From: Desulfosarcina sp. BuS5
Lineage (GTDB): Bacteria > Desulfobacterota > Desulfobacteria > Desulfobacterales > BuS5
NCBI RefSeq assembly: GCF_028752835.1
Contig: NZ_CP087952.1
Location: forward strand, 2,151,041 to 2,215,040
Length of the DNA: 64,000 bases
Reading direction: 5' to 3'
The notes under the pieces are model-generated. The model searched no databases. It saw nothing but the letters and a program-made list of their open reading frames with translations, and had not been told where the DNA came from. How positions within the stretch are numbered: the stretch's first letter is position 1; every line of letters starts with the position of its first letter. This document shows, one piece after another, positions 38,540-52,018 of the stretch. Made by a program: the position numbers and the translations under genes.

Positions 38540-38652
38540 GCAATAAACTATATAAAGGATGTATGGGCTAAATCTTGCGGCTTCTATATTCTGTCATTTG
38601 AGTGTTCCAATCCGCTGATCATGACTGTCAACCCAAAAAAAGGAGAAGTTTT

Positions 38653-39804
38653 ATGGATTTTAAGCTTACAACGGAACAGAAGATGCTGCGTAAAGCGGTG
38701 CGTGATTTTGCTGAAACCGCTATCAAACCGCTTGTTCAAGAGCTTGACGAAAAAGAGGAGTTCTCCTATGAAACAATGAAAATGATGGCCGAACTGGGAT
38801 TGTTCGGTATGTTTGTTTCTCCGGGATACGGCGGACAGGGTATTGATTATATTTCATATATAATCGCATGTGAAGAGTTGGCCAGGGTGGATGCTTCCCA
38901 TGCAGCTACGGTTGTTGCCGGAAACTCCCTGGGCATCGGCCCGCTCTATTATTTTGCCAATGATGAACAGAAAAAAAAGTACCTGCCCAAACTTTGCAGT
39001 GGAGAAGCTCTCTGGGGTTTCGGTTTAACCGAACCCAACGCCGGATCTGATGCAGGGAATACCGAAACAACGGCTGTCCTGGATGGAAATGAATGGGTAA
39101 TAAATGGAAACAAGATTTTCATTACCAATGCCGGAACGGATATTACCTTGGGTTCTACGATATTATGCCGCACCGGGACCCGTGATGATGGCAAGCCCGA
39201 GCTTTCCTGCATAATTGTCGAGAACGGCACACCAGGATTTACTACAAAGATTATGCATGGAAAGATGATGTGGCGCTCTTCCAATACTAATGAATTATAT
39301 TTTGATGACTGCCGGGTTCCCAAAGATAATCTGGTCGGACCCATCGGCAACGGGTTTCACCAGATGATGCAGACTCTGGACGGCGGCCGTTTATCAATCG
39401 GCGCAATGGGCCTGGGCGGCGCCCAGGGATGCTTTGACATGGCCCTTAAATACAGTAATAAAAGAAAACAGTTCGGCAAGCCGATATCCAAATTCCAGGT
39501 CAACTCATTTAAACTGGCCGATATGGCAATGGAGATTGAATGCGCCCGTCTCCTTCTTTACAAAGCCTGCTGGCTGAGACAAAACAATGAGCCATTTTCC
39601 AAAATAGCGGCAATGGCCAAGCTATACTCTTCCGAGGTCATGAGCCGATGCGCGGATCATGCTGTTCAGTTGTTCGGCGGTTATGGGTTGATGAAGGAAT
39701 ATGACATAGAGAGATTCTATAGAGACCAGAAACTTCTCGAAATCGGCGAAGGCACGTCGGAGGTGCAGCGTATTGTTATCTCCAGATTGATAGGCGCAGC
39801 CTGA
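38653..39804 (+). CDS. Acyl-CoA dehydrogenase
   Basis: A 383-residue flavoenzyme of the acyl-CoA dehydrogenase family. It has N-terminal helices to about 120, the FAD/substrate loop GFGLTEPNAGSDAGN, ALKYSNKRKQFGKPI and the C-terminal IGEGTSEVQR. The Glu in GEGT is the usual catalytic base; typical isovaleryl-CoA dehydrogenases have Ala or Gly there, so a short- or branched-chain substrate other than isovaleryl-CoA is possible. AAAGGAG precedes the ATG at 38653; an upstream start gives a non-family extension. It begins an acyl-CoA degradation cluster. Confidence 0.93.
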   Translation: MDFKLTTEQKMLRKAVRDFAETAIKPLVQELDEKEEFSYETMKMMAELGLFGMFVSPGYGGQGIDYISYIIACEELARVDASHAATVVAGNSLGIGPLYYFANDEQKKKYLPKLCSGEALWGFGLTEPNAGSDAGNTETTAVLDGNEWVINGNKIFITNAGTDITLGSTILCRTGTRDDGKPELSCIIVENGTPGFTTKIMHGKMMWRSSNTNELYFDDCRVPKDNLVGPIGNGFHQMMQTLDGGRLSIGAMGLGGAQGCFDMALKYSNKRKQFGKPISKFQVNSFKLADMAMEIECARLLLYKACWLRQNNEPFSKIAAMAKLYSSEVMSRCADHAVQLFGGYGLMKEYDIERFYRDQKLLEIGEGTSEVQRIVISRLIGAA

Positions 39805-39929
39805 TATTCAATTCCATAGGATTGCACTGGCCATCTTCAAGATGCCTGATAAAAATCTAAACTGAAAATTCCGAACAAGCTGTCAAACGTCATAAAAAAC
39901 CCTTTGGCAGTTCAAAAAGGAGGTTCTTG

Positions 39930-41093
39930 ATGACTGAATATGATTATTGGGAAATTTTTCCGAGAATGCCAAAAAAGATTAACATCGGAGACATAACCAT
40001 AAGAGACGGTTTTCAGCATGAAGAAAAATTTATCTCGACTGCTGCGAAAATCTTTTACCTTGAAGAGCTTATTCTCGCCGGCGCCCGTGAAATCGAGGTA
40101 ACCAATCTTGGGAACCCATATCTAATGCCGCAGTTCAGAGATGCTGAAGAACTGCTTGCTCATTTAAGGGGTGATCGTTTTAAAAATCGTTGCGAAAAAA
40201 AAGGTGTTAATTATGATGATTTATGTCTGACTGCAATTACTATCCGTGAACCTGCTGTGGATCGCGCTATCCGCTTAAAAAAAAAAGGAATCGGCCCTGA
40301 TCGGATACTGATGATGGTATCAACCGAGGAGGAACATCATTTTGCAAATTCAGGAACAACCCTTCCGGATTACTGGAGCGAGATCGAGAGATGTATCAAG
40401 AAGTGTAATGATGCCGGGATGAAGATGTGCGGAACAGTAAGTACAATCTGGGGCAGCCCGATCGGCGGGGCCACAGACATGAAGGATGCTGTGGAATTTA
40501 CAAAGCGGTTTCTCGAACTAGGCGCCCACGATATAGAGCATGCAGATCACGATGGCAGCGCATCCGCTGCCGATGTTTACAGGTACTTTTCTATGGTTCT
40601 GGATGAAATTCCCAACGTAGAGCTCCATTTAGCACATTTCCATGAAACCAAACGGGTTGCGTCGGCATCCGTTCTTGCAGCCCTGCAGGCTGGAATTACC
40701 CGTTTTGAGGCGACCCTTGGCGGTCTTGGAGGCCAGCCCGCGAACTTCCTTGATGACACCCCGGTTAAAGGAACCGGAGAGTATTATTATCCGGATCCCA
40801 GGTATGTGGGGCTGATAACCCTTGAGGATACCCTGGTTCAGATAGACGAGATGGGTATTGAACATGGTTATGATGTTGACAGGATTCTCTGGCTCGGAAA
40901 ACAGATGGAAAAGACAATCGGAAGGAGATTACGCTCCGAGGCAATTATTAACGGACGAACCATTAAAGAGGGGCATATGGAATTTGCACGCCCGGGCCTG
41001 GCTGAACGTAAGGCAAAATTAGGGGAAGCCCCCGGCCAGTCACTGCCTTCAGACTGGGCAAAGAAAGCTGCCCTGCCTGAAAGCTGCTTTTGA
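39930..41093 (+). CDS. HMG-CoA lyase-like DRE-TIM metallolyase
   Basis: A 387-residue TIM-barrel protein of the HMGL/isopropylmalate synthase superfamily. DITIRDGFQHEE gives the metal/substrate motif (Arg-Asp-x-x-Gln), and HLAHFHET the metal histidines. The loop that normally carries the catalytic Cys of HMG-CoA lyase (GLGGCP) reads GLGGQP here, so that Cys is missing. It is also longer than typical lyases (about 300). It may still be a lyase or a synthase of a related acyl-CoA. AAAGGAGG precedes the ATG at 39930. Confidence 0.75.
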   Translation: MTEYDYWEIFPRMPKKINIGDITIRDGFQHEEKFISTAAKIFYLEELILAGAREIEVTNLGNPYLMPQFRDAEELLAHLRGDRFKNRCEKKGVNYDDLCLTAITIREPAVDRAIRLKKKGIGPDRILMMVSTEEEHHFANSGTTLPDYWSEIERCIKKCNDAGMKMCGTVSTIWGSPIGGATDMKDAVEFTKRFLELGAHDIEHADHDGSASAADVYRYFSMVLDEIPNVELHLAHFHETKRVASASVLAALQAGITRFEATLGGLGGQPANFLDDTPVKGTGEYYYPDPRYVGLITLEDTLVQIDEMGIEHGYDVDRILWLGKQMEKTIGRRLRSEAIINGRTIKEGHMEFARPGLAERKAKLGEAPGQSLPSDWAKKAALPESCF

Positions 41094-41112
41094 TAAAAAA
41101 TCAAATTAGGAT

Positions 41113-41243
41113 TATAGAGACAAGGCATGCCTTGTCTCTATAGACCGTCACATAAATAATTTCACTGTGTTATCGGTCGTTGGAGTATTACAATACGCCT
41201 TCCTCCCTCTGGCCTTGTGAAATTTATTATCTGACGGTCTATA
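41113..41243. repeat. 30-bp perfect palindrome fused to a family A repeat
   Basis: 41113-41142 is a perfect palindrome (TATAGAGACAAGGCA and its complement). A family A copy (41139-41243) begins at its last bases with TATAGACCGTCACATAA and ends TTATCTGACGGTCTATA. The central hairpin of this copy is degenerate (GTATT-ac-AATAC). The block lies between two convergent genes and probably terminates both. Confidence 0.75.
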
Positions 41244-41278
41244 CGTTACCGCCGTTGTAACCGTTACATAAATATGCG

Positions 41279-43228
41279 CTAATCCTGAAGTTCGGGTAAA
41301 TTCCGGTAATAATCAAGAGCTTCCGGATTAATAAGAGCGTCTTTATTTAATACAGCTTCATTCTGTATTACCTTTTTAACAGCCAGTTCCACCTTCTTCA
41401 TGTTAATCGTATAAGGAATATCTGCTACGGGAATTATTTTGGCAGGCACATGCCTTGGGGTTGCGCTTGTTCTGATAAGACTGTTCAGCCTCTTTTTCAG
41501 TTCATCTGTAAGATCACTTCCTTCCGCCATCTTTACAAAGAGGATAACCCTTACGTCATTTTTCCAATCCTGACCAACTACCACGCTGTCGGCTATCTCA
41601 TCAATATTGTCGATAATCCTGTATATGTCTGCCGTGCCTATGCGGACGCCTCCGGGGTTCAGGGTTGCATCGGAACGGCCCAAAAAGACAACTCCTCCTG
41701 TTTCAGTTATCTTGATAAAATCACCATGTCTCCATATTCCGGGATAAACATCGAAATAGGCGTTATGATATTTCCGTCCGTCCGGATCATCCCAAAAATA
41801 GATCGGCATGGAAGGAAATGGTAAGGTGCATACCAGTTCGCCCTGCTGGTTTACAACAGGTTTGCCGTTTGAGTCAAATGCCTGCACATTCAAGCCCAGG
41901 CCCCGACACTGAAGTTCACCGGCATATACCGGTCCCATGGGATTGCCTCCGGCAAAACAACCGTTAATATCGGTTCCGCCGGAGATGGAGGAAAGCTGGA
42001 GATCTTTTTTTACTTCATCATAAACAAATTCAAAATTTTCTATGGAAAGGGGCGAACCGGTTGAGAGTACGGCTCTCAAGGCGGAAAGATCGTATTCTTT
42101 TCCGGGTTTTAAGCCTGAATCTTTAACTCCCCCGATATAAGCGGCACTTGTTCCAAAGACAGTCATTTGGGCATCCTGGGCCAGTTTCCAAAGAACGCCT
42201 GCATCAGGATAAAAGGGCTGTCCGTCAAATAGGATGACTGTAGCCCCCACCGCCAGTGAGCTTGTAAGCCAGTTCCACATCATCCAGCCGCAGGTCGTGA
42301 AATAAAATATCTTGTCTTCCCGCTTGAGATCAGTATGCAGTATCATTTCTTTAAGTTGATTGATCAATATGCCTCCGGCTCCCTGCACTATGCATTTGGG
42401 AAGATCAGTGGTGCCGGATGAATACATAATATAGACCGGATGATCAAAGGGGAGCTGCTCGAACTCAAGGGAACAATTACTGTCATGGGAAATAAAATCT
42501 TTGTAATGAACAGCATGGGTGATATCGGCAATATCAGCTTCCTGTTCCGTATAGGGCACGACAACGACTTTTTCAATGGAATCTATCTGGTCAAGAATGC
42601 TCCTGATACGTTCCAGAGAATCTATGCTCTTACCTTTGTATGAATATCCGTTGGCAGTAAACAGAATTTTTGGCTTTATCTGACCAAATCGGTCCATGAC
42701 TCCCTTTATGCCGAAATCAGGGGAGCATGATGACCAGGTTGCTCCCAGACTGGTTGCAGCCAGCATGGCAATGATAGACTGGGGCATATTGGGCATGAAC
42801 CCTACCACCCTGTCACCAACGGTAACTCCGGCCGCTTTGAGAGATTTAGCCAGACGCGCAACCTCGTCATACAGCTCTGCATAAGTTATGGTGACCGGAT
42901 CCAGGATCTCGCCTTTGAAGATTATGGCCGGATGATCATCTCTGTATCGCAGAAGATTCTCGGCAAAATTTAACCTGGCGCCCTGAAACCATTTGGCTCC
43001 GGGCATTTTTAGCTCATCTATTACTTCAGTATATGGCTCAGAAAATTTAATATCGACAAATTCCCACATGGTTGCCCAGAAATCTGCAATATTATCCACT
43101 GACCATTGGTGCAGAGGTTCATATTCGGTTAAATTTTTACCGAATTTTGAATTTACCGTCTGCATAAAACGATAAATATTAGTCTTTTTTTTTCGTTCTT
43201 CCGTGGGGCTCCACAACAATTTGCTCAT
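41279..43228 (-). CDS. Acetoacetyl-CoA synthetase
   Basis: A 649-residue ANL ligase of acetoacetate-CoA ligase type. It has the N-terminal LWSPTEERKK motif, MYSSGTTDLPKCIVQG (P-loop), SGGTDINGCFAGG and GRSDATLNPGGVRIG in the hinge region. The catalytic Lys is likely in YTINMKKVELAVKK near the end. It activates acetoacetate, the product expected from HMG-CoA cleavage. It is convergent with the lyase-like gene and starts an apparent minus-strand set with enoyl-CoA hydratase and carboxyltransferase. Confidence 0.92.
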   Translation of the reverse strand: MSKLLWSPTEERKKKTNIYRFMQTVNSKFGKNLTEYEPLHQWSVDNIADFWATMWEFVDIKFSEPYTEVIDELKMPGAKWFQGARLNFAENLLRYRDDHPAIIFKGEILDPVTITYAELYDEVARLAKSLKAAGVTVGDRVVGFMPNMPQSIIAMLAATSLGATWSSCSPDFGIKGVMDRFGQIKPKILFTANGYSYKGKSIDSLERIRSILDQIDSIEKVVVVPYTEQEADIADITHAVHYKDFISHDSNCSLEFEQLPFDHPVYIMYSSGTTDLPKCIVQGAGGILINQLKEMILHTDLKREDKIFYFTTCGWMMWNWLTSSLAVGATVILFDGQPFYPDAGVLWKLAQDAQMTVFGTSAAYIGGVKDSGLKPGKEYDLSALRAVLSTGSPLSIENFEFVYDEVKKDLQLSSISGGTDINGCFAGGNPMGPVYAGELQCRGLGLNVQAFDSNGKPVVNQQGELVCTLPFPSMPIYFWDDPDGRKYHNAYFDVYPGIWRHGDFIKITETGGVVFLGRSDATLNPGGVRIGTADIYRIIDNIDEIADSVVVGQDWKNDVRVILFVKMAEGSDLTDELKKRLNSLIRTSATPRHVPAKIIPVADIPYTINMKKVELAVKKVIQNEAVLNKDALINPEALDYYRNLPELQD

Positions 43229-43287: not shown

Positions 43288-44085
43288 CTATTTACCCTTA
43301 AAGACAGGTTTACGTTTTTCCGCAAAAGCCGCCAGGGCCTCAAGGCGATCCTCTGTTGGTATGGTAATTTCATAGGCCTTCGATTCCAGGGGCAGAGCCA
43401 CGCCAAGGCTGCATTCAAAACCGTTATTAAGCACAAATTTAGCCTGTTGAACGGCAATCGGCCCGTTTTTAGCTATCTCGCACGCAAGCTCCATGGCAGC
43501 ATCCATTAACTGATCCGGTTCCACAACCTTGCTTACCAAACCGATTTCAAGGGCTGTATCAGCATCGAATCTTCTGGCGGTATAGATAAGTTCCTTTGCT
43601 TTTGCCAAACCGACGATTCTTGGCAGCCGCTGAGTTCCTCCGCCTCCCGGAATTATTCCCAGGCTGGTTTCTGTTAAGCCCATAAGAGCATTTTTAGATG
43701 CTACGCGTAAATCGCTGGCAAGGGCCAGTTCCGTTCCGCCGCCGAAAGCAAACCCGTTAATAGCCGCTATTACAGGAACTCTTGCTTTTTCAACCGTAGT
43801 CATAGTATCCCTGACTATAGAGATAAAACGCCTGACCTGATCATCGCTCAGGGTCCTTCTTTCTATAAGATCGGCTCCTGCTGAAAATGAGGCTTTTTTC
43901 CCTTCCGGCGGTGGAGCGCCGGTTATGATAATAACCCTGACCGACAAATCAAAGTCCGATTCCCGCACTATTTCCTGTAATGTTTCGATAAGATCGAAAT
44001 TCATGCAGTTCATCGCTTCGGGCCTGTTAAGTGTGAGTATCAATATACCATCATCTGTTTTTTTCTGCAGAATTACATCAGGCAT
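43288..44085 (-). CDS. Enoyl-CoA hydratase family (possible methylglutaconyl-CoA hydratase)
   Basis: A 265-residue crotonase. It has the oxyanion-hole segment FSAGADLIERR, the second hole AINGFAFGGGTELALASDLR and the catalytic Glu in GLTETSLGIIPGGGGTQRLPR. In the context of a carboxyltransferase and an HMG-CoA lyase-like gene, methylglutaconyl-CoA hydration is the likely role. A general short-chain enoyl-CoA hydratase is equally possible from sequence alone. Confidence 0.85.
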   Translation of the reverse strand: MPDVILQKKTDDGILILTLNRPEAMNCMNFDLIETLQEIVRESDFDLSVRVIIITGAPPPEGKKASFSAGADLIERRTLSDDQVRRFISIVRDTMTTVEKARVPVIAAINGFAFGGGTELALASDLRVASKNALMGLTETSLGIIPGGGGTQRLPRIVGLAKAKELIYTARRFDADTALEIGLVSKVVEPDQLMDAAMELACEIAKNGPIAVQQAKFVLNNGFECSLGVALPLESKAYEITIPTEDRLEALAAFAEKRKPVFKGK

Positions 44086-44273: not shown

Positions 44274-45920
44274 TTAAAATTTAAAATTTCCGAATCTCGA
44301 TTCCTGAACCGGTTTTAAAAGCGCAATTTCAAATGCATCGCCGAGAATGTTGCGGGAATCCTTGAATGGTATGGTGCCGTCGTGAAATAGTCTTGCCTCA
44401 AGATAAAAAGGGTGGGCCTGCTTATTATACTTCTCAACCATCATCTGTTCAAATTTATTGGCGGCTTCCTCGTCCATCTCCCGGCCTCGTTTTTTTAAGT
44501 TGGCCCGCTCAAGAGTAGTTAAAATTGAACCGGCGGTCTGCCCTGCCATAACCGAGGTTCTGCCGCGCATGGTATTGAAAATAAAATGCGGATCATAGGC
44601 TCTGCCGCACATCCCATAATTGGCGGCTCCATGATCAGGCCCGATTACCCACTGTATCATGGGCACATTGGAACAGGCGCAAGCCCTTACCATGCCTGAG
44701 CCGTATTTCCCTATACCGGCATACTCCTCCTCGGTACCAACCATGTAGCCGGGAGAATTCTGGATGTAGAGGATCGGGATTTTCTGGGAAGAGCATCTAA
44801 CAACCCATTCTATGGCTTTCCTGGCAGAATCAACAAAGATTACACCGATACCGTTTCCAGCTATAATGCCCACCGGCAAGCCCTTGAGGTGGATTTTGCC
44901 GCATACAATATTATCGCCGCGGCCTGGATTGTAATTTTTTTTATATTCACTAAAAGCGCTTCCGTCTGCAATCGACTTAATTACTTCCCGAACATTAATC
45001 CCTTTATACGGATCGCTTGGAAGAACCTTGTACAGATGGTCCTCCGGAACTGTCGGCTCAATGGTTTCCCGACGTTCTATCTGCACTTTCTGTTTAGGAT
45101 CATAGGAGAGCAAGCTTCTCAGTTTTTCTATCCCTTCATCCTGTGACATAACCAAATGATCAGCACCCCCTGATATTGAGGTGTGAACTCTGGCGCCCCC
45201 CAGATCTTCCATTGTCACTTCTTCGCCTATGGCGGCTCTGACCATGGGAGGGCCGCCAAGAAATGAATAGGAGATCTTGTTTATCATGATCGATTCACAG
45301 GCCAGATAAACAGTATATGCACCTCCGGCAGTATTTCCGCCTGTGCTGAGAGTATACTGTTTTAAACCTTTGGCCGACATCCTGCACATATTGTAAAAAA
45401 AGCGTCCGAACTGACCCCTTCCGGGAAAGACCCTGTCCTGCATAGGAAGAAAGGCTCCTGCTGAATCGCCTATATAGACACAAGGCACACCGCACTGATC
45501 CGCCATTTCCTGGGCCCGGAGATGTTTTTTACAGTTAATGGGATAATAAGCGCCTGCTTTGACACGACTGTCATTTGCAATAATCATGGCCCAGTTGCCA
45601 TGGATTTTGCCTAAACCTGTGGCCAGACCAGCGCTAGGAACATCTTCCGCAAGCTCATAGTTGATTCCGAAACCGGCTCCCCGGCTAAGTTCAAGAAAAT
45701 CCGTATCAGGATCGATAAGTTGCTTGATAAGCTTACGCACAGGTTTTTTGCCCTGTTTGGCCAGACGGTCGAGCTGGCTTTGACCGCCTGCATTATAAGC
45801 TTTTTCCCAAAGCTCATAAAGTTTTTCTTCTTCCGCTTCCCAGTGCTTCAGGTTTTTCTGCTGCTCACGCTCTTTTTTTTTTTTACGCGATTCTCTACTT
45901 TTTTTTTCTGCCATGGCCAT
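44274..45920 (-). CDS. Biotin-dependent acyl-CoA carboxylase, carboxyltransferase subunit
   Basis: A 548-residue crotonase-fold carboxyltransferase. A lysine-rich N-terminal segment (first 40 residues) precedes the N domain (RGAGFGINYELAED, GIGVIFVDSARKA in the C domain) and the GGNTAGGAYTVYLACE and GMCGRAYDP motifs. The overall pattern is nearest methylcrotonyl-CoA carboxylase beta; glutaconyl-CoA or geranyl-CoA types cannot be excluded. It needs a biotin-carrying alpha subunit, not in the window. The adjacent biotin operon fits. AAAAAGG precedes the ATG. Confidence 0.85.
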   Translation of the reverse strand: MAMAEKKSRESRKKKKEREQQKNLKHWEAEEEKLYELWEKAYNAGGQSQLDRLAKQGKKPVRKLIKQLIDPDTDFLELSRGAGFGINYELAEDVPSAGLATGLGKIHGNWAMIIANDSRVKAGAYYPINCKKHLRAQEMADQCGVPCVYIGDSAGAFLPMQDRVFPGRGQFGRFFYNMCRMSAKGLKQYTLSTGGNTAGGAYTVYLACESIMINKISYSFLGGPPMVRAAIGEEVTMEDLGGARVHTSISGGADHLVMSQDEGIEKLRSLLSYDPKQKVQIERRETIEPTVPEDHLYKVLPSDPYKGINVREVIKSIADGSAFSEYKKNYNPGRGDNIVCGKIHLKGLPVGIIAGNGIGVIFVDSARKAIEWVVRCSSQKIPILYIQNSPGYMVGTEEEYAGIGKYGSGMVRACACSNVPMIQWVIGPDHGAANYGMCGRAYDPHFIFNTMRGRTSVMAGQTAGSILTTLERANLKKRGREMDEEAANKFEQMMVEKYNKQAHPFYLEARLFHDGTIPFKDSRNILGDAFEIALLKPVQESRFGNFKF

Positions 45921-46434: not shown

Positions 46435-47910
46435 ATGAAGCGTGATCAATGGAAAAGCCAAACGGGTTTTCTCTTTGCAGCCATAGGGTCAGCCATAGGG
46501 CTGGGCAATATCTGGCGTTTCAGCTATATGGCTTACAATCATGGAGGCGGCGCTTTTATAGCTCCTTATCTTATTGCGCTTGTAACGGCAGGCATACCTC
46601 TTTTAATACTCGAATTTTCAGTGGGACATGAATTAAGAGGTTCTGCCCCTTTGGCCTATGCAAAAATCAACAAAAAGATGGAATGGCTCGGATGGTGGGC
46701 TGTTACTTTCGTGATGTTCGGCATAGTACTCTACTATTCAGTAATAGTAGCATGGTGTATAATTTTTTTTGTTCTGTCATTTAACCTGGGATGGGGTAGT
46801 GATCCCAACACTTTCTTCTTCCAAAAATTCCTTTCCGTAAGCGACGCTCCTTTTAATATAGGTCAAATAAGAACTCCAATATTTGCAGGCCTTATTCTGG
46901 TCTGGTTTATCAACTGGGCTATTGTTTACAGGGGTGTTCAGCGTGGCATAGAAGCCGCCAACAAAATTTTTATGCCGGTCCTCTTTCTGTTGACTGCCCT
47001 GCTTGTTTTCTGGTCGCTCACTCTGGATGGAGCAATAAACGGCCTTAAAGCTTATTTAACACCCGATTTTTCAAAACTATCTGATCCAAAAGTCTGGATC
47101 GATGCCTACAGCCAGATATTTTTTACTTTGAGTCTAGGATTCGGGATTATGATAGCATATGCCAGCTATCTTCCCAGGAAAACGGATATAACAAAAAACG
47201 CTTTAATTACAGCAGTGATCAACAGCGCCTATTCCCTCTTTGCAGGGCTTGGTGTTTTCTCTGTTTTAGGCTTCATGGCCGGCTCACAGGGCAAAACAAT
47301 CGCAGAGGTGGTATCGCAAAGCATCGGCCTGGCTTTTGTAGCGTATCCAAAGGCTGTAAGCCTTATGCCGGCCGGCAATCTATTCGGAGCCGTTTTTTTT
47401 CTTTGCCTGGTAGTTGCCGGTTTTTCTTCATCCATATCGATCATTGAAGCCTTTGTTTCAGCGTTGATAGACAAGTTTAGAGTTCAAAGGGGCATGCTTG
47501 TCACTATAATTTCGATCACCGGGTTTACCGTTTCAATTATATTTGCCACCCAGGCAGGACTTCTGTGGCTCGATATTGTAGATCATTTTTTGACCCATTA
47601 CGGGCTTATAGTTGTCGGCATTGCGGAAGCGGTTTTAGTTGGCTGGTTTTTCCACATTAAGGTCCTGAGGCATCATATCAATAAAATATCTTCAATTAAA
47701 ATAGGTAAATGGTGGGATATCCTGATTAAATACTTCGTTCCGTTTGTTTTAGGAGTTATTCTTATCGGCGATTTATATAATGAGGTACAAAAACCTTATG
47801 GTGGATATTCCTGGACGTCAATAATCCTGATAGGAAGGGACTGGGTGCTTGTAACCTTGATTATTGCATTTGTTTTTTCTTCAAAAGCCTGGAAATCCGG
47901 GGACAGTTAA
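46435..47910 (+). CDS. Sodium-dependent neurotransmitter:sodium symporter family transporter
   Basis: A 491-residue NSS (SNF/LeuT-type) protein with about 12 membrane segments. The first segment has the sodium-binding signature SAIGLGNIWRF (about residues 18-28), with unwound-helix Gly residues. ADL-like ASYLPRKTDITKNALITA and the segment SFLFAGLGVFSVLG-like (YSLFAGLGVFSVLG) are typical. It imports amino acids or related substrates with sodium; the substrate is unknown. AAAGGAA lies 6 bases before the ATG. Confidence 0.93.
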   Translation: MKRDQWKSQTGFLFAAIGSAIGLGNIWRFSYMAYNHGGGAFIAPYLIALVTAGIPLLILEFSVGHELRGSAPLAYAKINKKMEWLGWWAVTFVMFGIVLYYSVIVAWCIIFFVLSFNLGWGSDPNTFFFQKFLSVSDAPFNIGQIRTPIFAGLILVWFINWAIVYRGVQRGIEAANKIFMPVLFLLTALLVFWSLTLDGAINGLKAYLTPDFSKLSDPKVWIDAYSQIFFTLSLGFGIMIAYASYLPRKTDITKNALITAVINSAYSLFAGLGVFSVLGFMAGSQGKTIAEVVSQSIGLAFVAYPKAVSLMPAGNLFGAVFFLCLVVAGFSSSISIIEAFVSALIDKFRVQRGMLVTIISITGFTVSIIFATQAGLLWLDIVDHFLTHYGLIVVGIAEAVLVGWFFHIKVLRHHINKISSIKIGKWWDILIKYFVPFVLGVILIGDLYNEVQKPYGGYSWTSIILIGRDWVLVTLIIAFVFSSKAWKSGDS

Positions 47911-48215: not shown

Positions 48216-50310
48216 CCCATCTTTTTGAGTTTTATGGGCAAATGCTCAAAATAAGCCTCATTTTAGAATTTTCAAAAATTTAATTTGAATGATTTTAATA
48301 GGTTAAAAATAATTTGCTCTGGCTTTACCAGTGTAGTGCCATAAAATAAAAAATAACTTGACTTTTTATTGATATCCGCCTATATTGGGCAACATGTATA
48401 TTAGAAAAACCACAATAAAAAGTCGAAAAGATGGCAAACAATATTACACCTATAGATTGGTTCAATCCGAACGAACTGCAAAGGGAGTCAGCCAGCACAC
48501 ATTAATTAATCTCGGTACGGCTTTTTCTCTGCCACGGGATCAATGGCCAGAATTATCTTCACGCATTCAGGAGATTATCAGTGGCCAGCAGAGTTTTTTC
48601 AAAATTTCTGAAGAAATAGAGGAGCTTGCTCAAAATTATGCAGCCCGGATTATTCACGCGCAACACAAAAATAAAGCTGAAAATAATAAGCCGGATTATC
48701 GCGAGGTAGATGTAGACAGCCTGGAAATGTTCAGGCCACGCAGTGTAAGCTGTGAACATGTGGCGCTGGAAGCGTTTGTTTTTTTAAAACTTGGTGAAGA
48801 ACTAAAAGCCCTGGGATTCAATGGCCCTCAGCTCGCAGCAGCAACCGGTACAATAATAGGTCGTATGTGTCAACCAGGTAGTGAACTGGCAACTCATTAC
48901 TGGCTCCAGAATGTTTCAGGCTTGGGTGAATTAATTGATTATGATTTCAACAAAATTAATCTATACAAAATGTATAAAATCTCTGATCAGCTTCTCAATA
49001 ATAAGGAAGCCATAGAAAATCATCTATACTTACAAGAAAAGAATTTATTTGAATTTCAAGAGACAATAACCCTTTATGATCTTACCAACACTTATTTTGA
49101 AGGCAGCAGTAAAGCAAACAAGCTGGGGAAACGCGGACATTCCAAAGAGAAACGTTCTGATTGTCCACTGGTAACTTTGGCTTTGGTGCTGGACAGCAGT
49201 GGCTTTCCCAAGCGCAGCAAAGTATTTGAGGGTAATGTAAGTGAACCGTCAACATTAAAAAAAATGATTGTTGGTTTGGAAAGAAAGAATTTATCCCAAG
49301 AGCTGTTTAAGCCCTCAAAAGCGACTATAGTAATGGATGCCGGAATTGCCACTGAAGATAATATTAAATGGCTCAGGGAAAACAGTTATCCATATATTGT
49401 AGTTAGCCGAAAACATCATCGCGAATTTAATGAAGATGAAGCAGTTGTGGTAAAACAAGACAATGACTGCACAGTAAAAGTGCAAAAAATTATTGACTCA
49501 GAAAATGATGAGGTTTTGTTGTATTGTCACTCTACAAAGCGGGAAAAAAAAGAACAGGCTATTAATGATCGCTTTACCATTCGCTTTGAAAAGGCTGTCA
49601 GCAAACTTGAGTCAGGCTTGCATAAAAAAGGATGTCTAAAAAAATACGATAAAGTCCTGGAAAAAATAGGTCGTCTGAAACAGCAATATTCCAAGGCTGC
49701 AAAGCATTATAAAATAGAAGTATCTAAAAACGAAAAAAATGGCAACGCTGTTAAGATCCTTTGGACACGCCAAACGCTTGCGGACACAAAAGATAGTTTG
49801 CCGGGAGTATATTGTCTCAGAACAACCCATATGGAATTTGATGAAGCTACGCTATGGCGTACATATACAATGTTAACGGATTTGGAGGCTGTTTTTCGTT
49901 CACTGAAATCCGAGCTTGGGATGCGGCCGGTTTTTCACCAAATCACAAAACGGGTGACAGGTCATATTTTTATCAGTGTCATCGCTTACCATTTGATACA
50001 TAGTATTCGTTACCGATTGAAAAAGACGGGGATAAACAGTAGCTGGTCTGATTTGAGAAAACAACTGGCAGGCCAAAATCGAGTAACAGTTTCCATGCAG
50101 TGCCGAAATGATAATGTTGTACATGTAAGAAAAAGCACACGACCGGAATCACGACAACAGAAAATATATTCTGCTTTAGGGTTAAGCTCTCTCCCTGGCA
50201 GAACGATGAAAACAACTATCAAAAAAAATAAAAGTAGTGCCATAACTAAGATTTTAAAAAAGTAACCTACTGTAATTATAGTGTTTATTTTTTTTATTCA
50301 AAAAGATGGG
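48216..50310 (+). mobile_element. IS1634-family insertion sequence
   Basis: The inverted ends CCCATCTTTTTGA (48216-48228) and its complement (50298-50310) enclose one transposase gene. It starts 1 base past the TTA that follows the family C element at 48055, so two elements are packed end to end. Target duplication not evident. Confidence 0.7.
48394..50265 (+). CDS. IS1634-family transposase
   Basis: A 623-residue DDE transposase (IS4 superfamily). It begins MYIRKTTIKSRKDGKQYYTYRLV, typical of IS1634. Catalytic residues are probable in TLYDLTNTYFEG (Asp), TIVMDAGIATEDN (Asp) and VFRSLKSELGMRPVFH (Glu, in the YREK-like signature). The ATG at 48394 is preferred over the TTG 9 bases earlier. 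The frame looks complete. Confidence 0.88.
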   Translation: MYIRKTTIKSRKDGKQYYTYRLVQSERTAKGVSQHTLINLGTAFSLPRDQWPELSSRIQEIISGQQSFFKISEEIEELAQNYAARIIHAQHKNKAENNKPDYREVDVDSLEMFRPRSVSCEHVALEAFVFLKLGEELKALGFNGPQLAAATGTIIGRMCQPGSELATHYWLQNVSGLGELIDYDFNKINLYKMYKISDQLLNNKEAIENHLYLQEKNLFEFQETITLYDLTNTYFEGSSKANKLGKRGHSKEKRSDCPLVTLALVLDSSGFPKRSKVFEGNVSEPSTLKKMIVGLERKNLSQELFKPSKATIVMDAGIATEDNIKWLRENSYPYIVVSRKHHREFNEDEAVVVKQDNDCTVKVQKIIDSENDEVLLYCHSTKREKKEQAINDRFTIRFEKAVSKLESGLHKKGCLKKYDKVLEKIGRLKQQYSKAAKHYKIEVSKNEKNGNAVKILWTRQTLADTKDSLPGVYCLRTTHMEFDEATLWRTYTMLTDLEAVFRSLKSELGMRPVFHQITKRVTGHIFISVIAYHLIHSIRYRLKKTGINSSWSDLRKQLAGQNRVTVSMQCRNDNVVHVRKSTRPESRQQKIYSALGLSSLPGRTMKTTIKKNKSSAITKILKK

Positions 50311-50359
50311 TTGAGTGATTATAATCTGTTTCTAATTATTTCAGGACAAATAAATTAAC

Positions 50360-52018
50360 ATGGCGTACATAACTCGTAAACAAATTAAAGGTGTCACCTA
50401 TTATTATGCTGAAGAGAGTGAACGACTTGACGGAAAAACTCGAAGGAAATGGCAAAAATATTTAGGCCCTTTGCACAAAATAATGTCTGCATTGGACGGG
50501 CTTCCCTCAAAACCCCAATATGCAGAAATATTTGAACTTGGATCTCCAGCAGCATATTTGAAGATTGTCCAGGATTTCAAAATAATTCAAACCTTGGACA
50601 GCACCCTTCATAAACGCAGTCAGGGCTTGACAACTGGTTTTTATCTGGGGTTAGCCGCAATCAACAGAGGAATTGAATCTGTCAGTAAACGTTCCATGTG
50701 GAATTGGTATAAAAATACAATTTTGTTAAGAGCCTTTCCAGAAGTAGATCAAAAATCATTAAGTTCTCAGCGTTTTTGGGACAACATGTCAACCATCAAT
50801 GAGTATAAGATCAAGCCAGCCTGGATGAATCTTATTAATTCAGTTCTGGAACATGAAAAAATTGATATATCCAAAGTTTCGTATGATGGTACTAATTTTT
50901 ACTCTTTTATACACTTTTTCAATAGCCATTGTTCCTTAGCTCAAAGAGGGAAAAACAAGCAGGGTCGAGGAGATCTAAAACAAATTAATTATGCCTTGTT
51001 TTGTACTCGCCAAGACCATTTTCCGCTTTACTTTGATGTATACGAAGGAAACCGCCATGATTCCAAAGCATTTGAAAACGTAATTGATAATTTCTTTGAG
51101 GCTTTTCTAAGCAAGGTTCACAATGAAAAAGGGATGACAATTGTATTTGATAAAGGAAATAATTCGGACGCAAATTTTAAAAAATTCATAACAGATTCAG
51201 AATTTCATTTTGTCGGCTCAGTCAAACCGGATGATCATAAAGAACTGGCTATGATATCCAATAATGATGAGTCCCTGAAACCAGTATCCCATCCTCGTTT
51301 AGATCAGGTAAAAGCGTTTCGGACACAAAAAAATATATACGGTAAAAACCTTACCGTCATTGTTACTTTCAATAATACCCTATACACATCTCAGCTTCAA
51401 TCAATTAATAATGAAATTAACAAATGCATTGGTAAATTAAGTCTGCTATCGTCTAAATTAGAAAATCGTATTGCCAAAATAATTACAAAAGGAAAAAAGC
51501 CGACAAAAGAGTCGATTCAAAGACAGGCCGCATCAATTCGTTCAGGCCAGCATATGAAAAAACTAATTTCTGTGAGGGTTACTGACTGCAATGGTATCCC
51601 AAGGCTCAATTATCATTTGAATAATACTGCTTTTGCCGAACTATGTGATACATATCTTGGAAAAAACATTATAATTACTGACAATGCTCATTGGACAACG
51701 GAAGAAATTATTGTATCATATCGTAGTCAATACATCATTGAAGATGTTTTTAAACAGATGAAAGATCGAAAAACAGGAAGCTGGTGGCCAATGTTTCACT
51801 GGACAGATCAGATGATAAGAGTTCATGCTTTGTATTGTTCAATAACCTTGCTGATTCGGGCTTTAATGATGAAAAAAATTCAAAAAGCCGGAATATCAAT
51901 TTCTATTAACAGAGCTCAGGAAAAATTATCAAAGATTCGAGAAGTCTTAAATGTATTTCCTCCCAAAAGAAAAAAAAAGGTCTCTCAATCAACAATTTCG
52001 AAAATGGATGAAACTTAA
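50360..52018 (+). CDS. IS1634-like transposase, second element
   Basis: A 552-residue transposase of the same broad IS1634/IS4 group but clearly different from the previous gene. It starts MAYITRKQIKGVTYYYAEES; DGTNFYSFI (Asp), MTIVFDKGNNSDANFK (Asp) and SQYIIEDVFKQMKD (Glu) mark the catalytic core. No inverted ends were found by eye. It lies 50 bases beyond the right end of the first IS, so elements have piled up here. Confidence 0.85.
   Translation: MAYITRKQIKGVTYYYAEESERLDGKTRRKWQKYLGPLHKIMSALDGLPSKPQYAEIFELGSPAAYLKIVQDFKIIQTLDSTLHKRSQGLTTGFYLGLAAINRGIESVSKRSMWNWYKNTILLRAFPEVDQKSLSSQRFWDNMSTINEYKIKPAWMNLINSVLEHEKIDISKVSYDGTNFYSFIHFFNSHCSLAQRGKNKQGRGDLKQINYALFCTRQDHFPLYFDVYEGNRHDSKAFENVIDNFFEAFLSKVHNEKGMTIVFDKGNNSDANFKKFITDSEFHFVGSVKPDDHKELAMISNNDESLKPVSHPRLDQVKAFRTQKNIYGKNLTVIVTFNNTLYTSQLQSINNEINKCIGKLSLLSSKLENRIAKIITKGKKPTKESIQRQAASIRSGQHMKKLISVRVTDCNGIPRLNYHLNNTAFAELCDTYLGKNIIITDNAHWTTEEIIVSYRSQYIIEDVFKQMKDRKTGSWWPMFHWTDQMIRVHALYCSITLLIRALMMKKIQKAGISISINRAQEKLSKIREVLNVFPPKRKKKVSQSTISKMDET

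Follow-up and report, generated by a model that had tools for sequence, protein, structure and literature searches.

A cysteine-less branch of the HMG-CoA lyase group, encoded among probable isovaleryl-CoA pathway genes of Desulfosarcina sp. BuS5

Results

Genes and features at the locus

The window analysed here, a stretch of 64,000 nucleotides from the genome of Desulfosarcina sp. BuS5 (contig NZ_CP087952.1, positions 2,151,041 to 2,215,040), carries a gene for an HMG-CoA-lyase-like protein without the signature cysteine, which we call HMGL-Q (Table 1). The gene starts with ATG, has the sequence AAGGAGG at 39917–39923, and comprises 387 codons followed by TGA. PF00682 is the sole Pfam match in the protein at E 0.001, PF03328 being absent from it; and the features of PF00682, the HMGL-like superfamily (DRE-TIM metallolyases), are present as R-D-x-x-Q and H-x-H (R25, D26, Q29, H236 and H238). 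The NCBIfam HMG-CoA lyase model NF004283 gives HMGL-Q a score of 133–137 bits, under its cut-off of 246 bits.

Table 1. Positions of HMGL-Q, its sequence features and its neighbours in the window, and of the HMGL-X copies at other loci
Feature	Position	Strand	Basis or remark
Acyl-CoA dehydrogenase (ACAD; isovaleryl-CoA to 3-methylcrotonyl-CoA, inferred)	38650..39804	+	Pfam Acyl-CoA_dh; upstream of HMGL-Q, same direction
HMGL-Q (Cys-less HMG-CoA-lyase-like gene)	39930..41093	+	ORF with ribosome-binding site; PF00682 74 bits, above cut-off
Codons 203–208, EHADHD	40536..40553	+	Asp206 retained; His207 replaces Thr
Signature GLGGQP, residues 265–270	40722..40739	+	Gln269 in Cys column of solved HMG-CoA lyases
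Insert, residues 271–287 (ANF...GTGEYYY)	40740..40790	+	Gap in 19/19 Cys-type sequences
Leu295, column of the metal-ligand Asn (human Asn275)	40812..40814	+	Leu in 120/120 of the family, Asn in 19/19 Cys-type
Acetoacetyl-CoA synthetase (AACS; uses the expected product acetoacetate)	41279..43228	-	TIGR01217 919 bits, above cut-off
Enoyl-CoA hydratase (3-methylglutaconyl-CoA hydration, inferred)	43288..44085	-	PF00378
Carboxyltransferase (CT), methylcrotonyl-CoA carboxylase (MCC) beta type	44274..45920	-	PDB chain matches
HMGL-X, other loci	L145 8533-9540; L146 8803-9756; L028 204-1148; L031 2303-3277		

The start of the acyl-CoA dehydrogenase gene was set at an ATG by choice, its ORF opening at 38602. 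Against PDB chains, the hydratase scores 211 bits with 1hzd, which is named methylglutaconyl-CoA hydratase and stands in the third tier behind 3kqf (245 bits). The carboxyltransferase scores 354–428 bits with MCC beta chains, compared with 121–137 bits for glutaconyl-CoA decarboxylase and at most 186 bits for most propionyl-CoA carboxylases; its single top match is 9tps, named propionyl-CoA carboxylase beta (432 bits), and AccD1, a probable acetyl-/propionyl-CoA carboxylase, reaches 416 bits. Judged by these assignments, HMGL-Q and its neighbours in the window would make a complete pathway from isovaleryl-CoA to acetyl-CoA and acetoacetyl-CoA.

Several further features surround these genes. 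Just upstream there is a biotin operon (bioB, bioA, bioF, bioD). The sole biotin carboxylase C-terminal domain detected in the genome (G000, C1:2605722-2608519) adjoins another carboxyltransferase, and the MCC-beta-type subunit of the window, which has no biotin carboxylase nearby, may share that one. A sodium-dependent transporter gene (46435–47910; NF037979), divergent from the carboxyltransferase group, is possibly an amino-acid importer for the pathway, and a pair of adjacent IS1634-family transposase genes lies at 48385–52018. Between the convergent genes, at 41130–41250, is a palindromic repeat of about 105 bases, and the stretch 41085–41275 folds at z −5.8. Because the repeat matches at least 39 other places in the genome (about 84–112 bases, 89–96% identity, with 40 of 258 first-look candidates scored), it is likely a MITE- or REP-like element.

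Signature, insert and fold

The preliminary description of this ORF had reported GLGGQP in place of GLGGCP, and it was correct: a phmmer comparison with PDB chains (best match 6nds, 2.8e-24) sets Gln269, encoded by CAG at 40734–40736, opposite the GLGGCP Cys of HMG-CoA lyases with known structures. It had also ascribed the length of 387 residues to an inserted segment; the insert at residues 271–287 is real, but smaller insertions and a C-terminal tail contribute to the surplus length as well. It missed the loss of the fourth metal ligand (Asn to Leu295) and the accompanying His207.

An AlphaFold2 model of HMGL-Q, made from an alignment of 77/84 relatives, has a mean pLDDT of 94.5. When the model is compared with PDB structures, HMG-CoA lyases come at the top with Z of 37.6–41.5 (6nds: Z 41.5, 2.2 Å over 305 residues) and homocitrate synthase comes next at 30.1, a ranking with which Foldseek agrees. 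As modelled, the fold of HMGL-Q is the HMG-CoA lyase barrel.

Conservation and coupled changes at the active site

We examined conservation in 147 distinct HMGL-like sequences, excluding duplicates and aligned spans below 220 residues: 120 family sequences with at least 50% identity to the window protein, 19 Cys-type sequences and 8 others. Whether Gln is fixed in homologues, a check proposed in the preliminary description, is answered by the family, where Gln269 and Leu295 are each found in 120/120 sequences; the Gln also rules out a sequencing or frame artefact. Within the insert, G281, T282, G283, Y285 and Y286 are each present in 120/120 and Asn272 in 119/120, and, given a Gln in 120/120 together with GTGxYYY insert positions at 119–120/120, Gln269 is not there by chance. 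The 19 Cys-type rows were chosen by the motif GG[CG]P at below 35% identity, so that Cys in 19/19 is partly by construction, and Asn in 19/19 is not.

In human HMG-CoA lyase, Arg41, Glu72, Tyr167 and Cys266 are critical, and Asp42, Asn275, His233 and His235 are metal ligands (available text of PMC6941031). The equivalents R25, E56, D26, H236 and H238 are retained in HMGL-Q and, like Asp206, are invariant in 120/120 family sequences. Two of the listed residues, the equivalents of Cys266 and Asn275, are missing altogether from the branch. The column of Tyr167 (human alignment, numbering inferred) is Thr169 in HMGL-Q, and it holds Tyr in just 4/19 Cys-type sequences.

A wider set, from which hits no longer than 700 bases and hits containing stops were removed, kept 175 sequences, 161 of them distinct, with classes assigned by best-matching reference and not by motif. 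At residues 269/295/207, the 161 distinct sequences divide into Gln/Leu/His (117), Trp/Leu/His (1), Gln/Asn/Thr (16), Cys/Asn/Thr (22) and Cys/Asn/Leu (5). His207 is present in 118/118 sequences with Leu295 and in 0/43 with Asn295, a pattern that suggests that His may have taken over as the Asn ligand disappeared; the linkage is one event on the tree and is therefore not independent evidence. Further positions are near-fixed in the branch and missing from Cys-type sequences: Thr104-Ile105-Arg106, Glu203-His204, Asp208 and the Tyr cluster of the insert. Branch-specific stretches besides the signature and metal residues include 104–106, 125–132 and 203–208.

Origin of the branch

In a maximum-likelihood tree of 49 rows (47 of the 175 HMGL-like sequences, at below 78% identity, and 2 outgroup rows), all 25 Cys-less rows form a single clade with support of 99/96, or 98/92 with the signature and insert columns removed. 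The Cys-less branch to which HMGL-Q belongs within the HMG-CoA lyase group is real and conserved. Proteins with Gln and Asn lie at the base of this clade, and two Gln/Asn rows, L206 and L207, are the first branch of the clade that contains the Gln/Leu/His proteins. Read most simply, the tree would imply two steps: Cys was lost once, and first, to Gln; and Asn was replaced by Leu, with the gain of His207, later.

The genes of L206 (at 7268) and L207 (at 8287) represent a further Gln branch that has the insert and retains Asn and Thr207 (GSGGGQPSF/GQPAF); a biotin-carboxylase-like gene lies about 1 and 5 kb from them. In a contig scan, the best 80 of 213 confirmed HMGL-Q loci were on contigs titled Desulfobacterota/Deltaproteobacteria, or merely Proteobacteria.

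Gene context in other genomes

Neighbours of HMGL-Q were counted within 6 kb at 116 unique loci, whose flank lengths vary and are in many cases cut by contig ends; numbers in brackets refer to the 77 loci flanked on either side by 4 kb or more. A hydratase (at least 50% identity) is near HMGL-Q at 87 loci (69 of the 77), an acyl-CoA dehydrogenase (at least 60%) at 60 (44), an MCC-beta-type carboxyltransferase (at least 50%) at 41 (33), an HTH regulator at 45 (25), acetoacetyl-CoA synthetase at 20 (11), a Cys-type HMGL at 15 (13), a glutaconyl-CoA-decarboxylase-type carboxyltransferase at 6 (3), and a divergent paralogue, HMGL-X, at 4 (2). In many operons the carboxyltransferase gene stands between the hydratase gene and HMGL-Q.

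Co-occurrence was tallied by hand across 297 genomes of the phylum. HMGL-Q (at least 45%) is found in 70 of them, two of which (G011, G041) hold a partial gene only, and the MCC-beta-type carboxyltransferase (at least 53%) in 35; both are found in 33 (Fisher p 6e-22), less than 5 kb apart in 29 of these, and 37 of the 70 HMGL-Q genomes gave no MCC-beta-type carboxyltransferase at 53% identity. Acetoacetyl-CoA synthetase is present in 104/297 genomes, together with HMGL-Q in 54.

At six loci (L145, L146, L116, L213, L214 and L215), a glutaconyl-CoA-decarboxylase-type carboxyltransferase lies beside HMGL-Q and no MCC-beta type is near. The one copy checked, that of L116, scores 743 bits with 3gf3, glutaconyl-CoA decarboxylase subunit A. 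These carboxyltransferases are possibly Na+-linked enzymes that handle 3-methylglutaconyl-CoA.

Other candidate lyases and paralogues

In the window genome (97.27% complete), a search with the HMG-CoA lyase model gave no match above 51 bits besides HMGL-Q, and a Cys-type query at E 1e-10 found HMGL-Q only and no Cys-type HMGL. A PF03328 search of the same genome gave no match, and we therefore reject a lyase of this family, to which the (R)-HMG-CoA lyase Rv2498c belongs (available text of PMC6689899), as the enzyme of the HMG-CoA step there.

Among the 70 HMGL-Q genomes, 54 also have an HMGL-family match above the NF004283 cut-off, as read by hand and with the Cys not verified individually. 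Of the 16 without such a match, a Cys-type query was run against 13, G011, G073 and G176 being left out; the matches of G073 and G176 lie just below the cut-off, at 232 and 225 bits. Eight of the 13 (G000, which is the window genome, G072, G210, G083, G135, G159, G167 and G003; completeness 84–100%) hold HMGL-Q alone, and the other five hold HMGL-Q and HMGL-X. The latter has R-E for R-D, H-P-H-H and GG[TS]GGC[VI]TGAPGN, and it lies next to HMGL-Q where no conventional HMGL scores above the cut-off.

At L137, L139 and L141–L143, and more distantly at L118, a Cys-bearing paralogue and HMGL-Q flank one enoyl-CoA hydratase; at L121, L208 and L209, a Cys-type and a Gln/Asn-type HMGL do so. It is odd that an operon should encode two lyases for a single step, and simple redundancy explains such pairs poorly. 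It is possible that the paired lyases differ in stereospecificity or in metal, or that one of them takes a different substrate.

The orthologue of Desulfococcus multivorans

The D. multivorans genome has an HMGL-Q that shares 85% identity with the window protein, with both Gln and insert, at 3.210 Mb, where the gene order is ACAD-hydratase-CT-HMGLQ-regulator-hydrolase-AACS; it scores 132 of 246 bits with NF004283. Two Cys-type HMGLs were detected in the same genome, at 0.12 and 1.31 Mb. According to the available text of PMC5109826, an isovalerate cluster lies at 3.20 Mbp, and HmgL, Mcc, EchA2 and AcsA6 were formed exclusively in cells adapted to 3-methylbutanoate. From the position, we infer that this HmgL is the 85%-identical HMGL-Q protein; the word cysteine is absent from the main text of that paper. 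The proteome reports protein formation, which is separate from activity.

Discussion

Our results suggest, with a probability of about 0.7, that HMGL-Q serves the isovaleryl-CoA (leucine/isovalerate) pathway as an HMG-CoA lyase without the signature Cys, performing the same reaction by a modified mechanism. Its place in this pathway is supported by the neighbouring genes, by co-occurrence and by the available account of the D. multivorans proteome (PMC5109826). The preliminary description had proposed that this branch has either a different reaction or a mechanism of its own: the residues and the tree bear out that the branch is distinct and its active site rebuilt, but a different reaction is disfavoured by the gene context, by the lack of another candidate lyase in the searches of the window genome and by the isovalerate-specific D. 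multivorans proteome. In the organism of the window, HMGL-Q most likely acts as the functional lyase when isovalerate/leucine is oxidised anaerobically, and the purified protein would probably show HMG-CoA lyase activity. Several findings speak against this reading: the score of HMGL-Q below the NF004283 cut-off, the further above-cut-off match in 54/70 HMGL-Q genomes and the Cys-type HMGL within 6 kb at 15/116 loci, and the 37/70 HMGL-Q genomes that gave no MCC-beta-type carboxyltransferase at 53% identity, although at 6 loci a decarboxylase-type one lies beside HMGL-Q.

In this reaction, HMGL-Q would cleave 3-hydroxy-3-methylglutaryl-CoA to acetyl-CoA and acetoacetate, and the latter would be activated by the neighbouring acetoacetyl-CoA synthetase. 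A divalent metal would be held by Asp26, His236 and His238, with His207, whose metal role is putative, or a residue of the insert replacing the Asn; C-C cleavage would proceed as before, as a metal-assisted retro-aldol reaction with Arg25/Asp26. A proton step in HMG-CoA lyase is attributed to the signature Cys, and in HMGL-Q this step could pass to His207, to a water held by Gln269, or to a Tyr of the insert.

A tentative extension, which we consider unlikely, would make the Cys-less branch the stereochemical opposite of the classical enzyme, cleaving (R)-HMG-CoA at a His-rich site (Asp26, His207, His236, His238) whose metal is perhaps Fe(II) or Mn(II). It is raised because the stereoselectivity of Rv2498c is ascribed to metal coordination (available text of PMC6689899) and exactly a metal ligand is changed in HMGL-Q. 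If it is true, operons with a Cys-type and a Cys-less HMGL round one hydratase would clear both HMG-CoA enantiomers.

It is improbable, in our judgement, that HMGL-Q cleaves another 3-hydroxyacyl-CoA of the same pathway family, such as 3-hydroxyisovaleryl-CoA, which would yield acetone and acetyl-CoA, or one of its longer homologues, with the Cys-type enzyme taking HMG-CoA where both exist. The change of metal and signature residues alongside many branch-specific positions would fit such a switch, as would the HMGL-family match above cut-off in most HMGL-Q genomes and the lack of an MCC-beta-type carboxyltransferase (50%) within 6 kb at 75/116 loci, 44/77 among those well flanked. Against it stand the placement of a carboxyltransferase gene between hydratase and HMGL-Q in many operons, the decarboxylase-type carboxyltransferase at some loci without MCC-beta, the acetoacetyl-CoA synthetase neighbouring HMGL-Q at 20/116 loci, and the searches of the window genome, which found no other HMG-CoA lyase. 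The loci without MCC-beta could be taken as proof of a carboxylation-free acetone route; the decarboxylase-type carboxyltransferase beside HMGL-Q weakens that proof, and we retain the route as a rival.

A condensing, biosynthetic role, in which acetoacetate and acetyl-CoA yield HMG-CoA that feeds isovaleryl-CoA synthesis, is very improbable. In principle the steps can run in reverse, and condensing enzymes (homocitrate, citramalate and isopropylmalate synthases) share the fold, with Z of about 27–30 against the HMGL-Q model; but the sequence and fold of HMGL-Q are closest to lyases, not synthases, and, if the identification by position holds, the protein is formed exclusively in isovalerate-adapted D. 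multivorans (available text of PMC5109826). Least probable is a catalytically dead HMGL-Q whose part is to regulate a Cys-type HMGL or to support it structurally, which the recurrent Cys-bearing paralogue nearby (Cys-type 15/116, HMGL-X 4/116 loci) would suit, but which sits poorly with Arg-Asp, Glu, Asp and His-x-His retained in 117/117 Gln/Leu/His sequences and with 8/13 searched genomes, the window's included, in which neither a Cys-type nor an X-type partner was found.

HMG-CoA lyase has a place in the textbooks and in medicine, and its Cys and Asn are listed as critical. A large natural branch that lacks both in the same pathway slot would make the Cys one solution and not a requirement, and the textbook mechanism may not be the sole one. 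The natural variants Cys/Asn, Gln/Asn and Gln/Leu/His are a ready set for dissecting the mechanism. Recognition of the branch would also aid annotation of isovalerate/leucine oxidation in sulfate reducers and their relatives, as such proteins score below the curated cut-off.

No paper describing an HMG-CoA lyase without the Cys came up in a literature search in which subscription journals were thinly covered. The available text of PMC7382037 mentions that isovalerate is degraded through carboxylation and a lyase, and also a Syntrophales family, and gives no residue detail there. Rv2498c of M. tuberculosis likewise performs a non-standard HMG-CoA cleavage in leucine breakdown, but it belongs to another family, PF03328 (available text of PMC6689899). 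The carboxyltransferase domains of pyruvate carboxylase and transcarboxylase 5S share the superfamily fold with HMGL-Q at Z of about 22–24. These domains have Gln-Pro at the matching loop, and PF00682 enzymes of the transcarboxylase type have a carbamylated Lys preceding the Asp of strand 6. The Lys has no counterpart in HMGL-Q, where position 205 is Ala in 120/120, and a transcarboxylase-like role read from the Gln-Pro loop is rejected on this ground.

HmgL of D. multivorans (PMC5109826), matched by position, shares its gene set with the window, but its genes are unidirectional and include a regulator gene, whereas the window has two convergent groups. The Gln/Asn grade (for example, L120, L121, L122, L123 and L130) has Gln in the Cys position as HMGL-Q does, and the operon setting of L120 and L130, with ACAD, AACS, hydratase and regulator, resembles that of HMGL-Q; in contrast to HMGL-Q, proteins of this grade retain the Asn ligand and Thr207, have a shorter insert, and are 29–34% identical to the window protein, scoring 235–264 bits with NF004283 (2/5 above cut-off). 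With the established HMG-CoA lyases (HMGCL, LiuE, YngG; EC 4.1.3.4; 2cw6, 1ydo, 2ftp, 6nds), HMGL-Q shares the barrel over residues 5–351 at 24–27% identity, the equivalents of Arg41, Asp42, Glu72, His233 and His235, and the pathway position; it differs in Cys266 to Gln, Asn275 to Leu, the new His207, the 17-residue insert after the signature, and the C-terminal tail. Going by these residues, the HMGL-Q branch is most likely a variant of the known HMG-CoA lyase group with a rebuilt metal and acid-base site.
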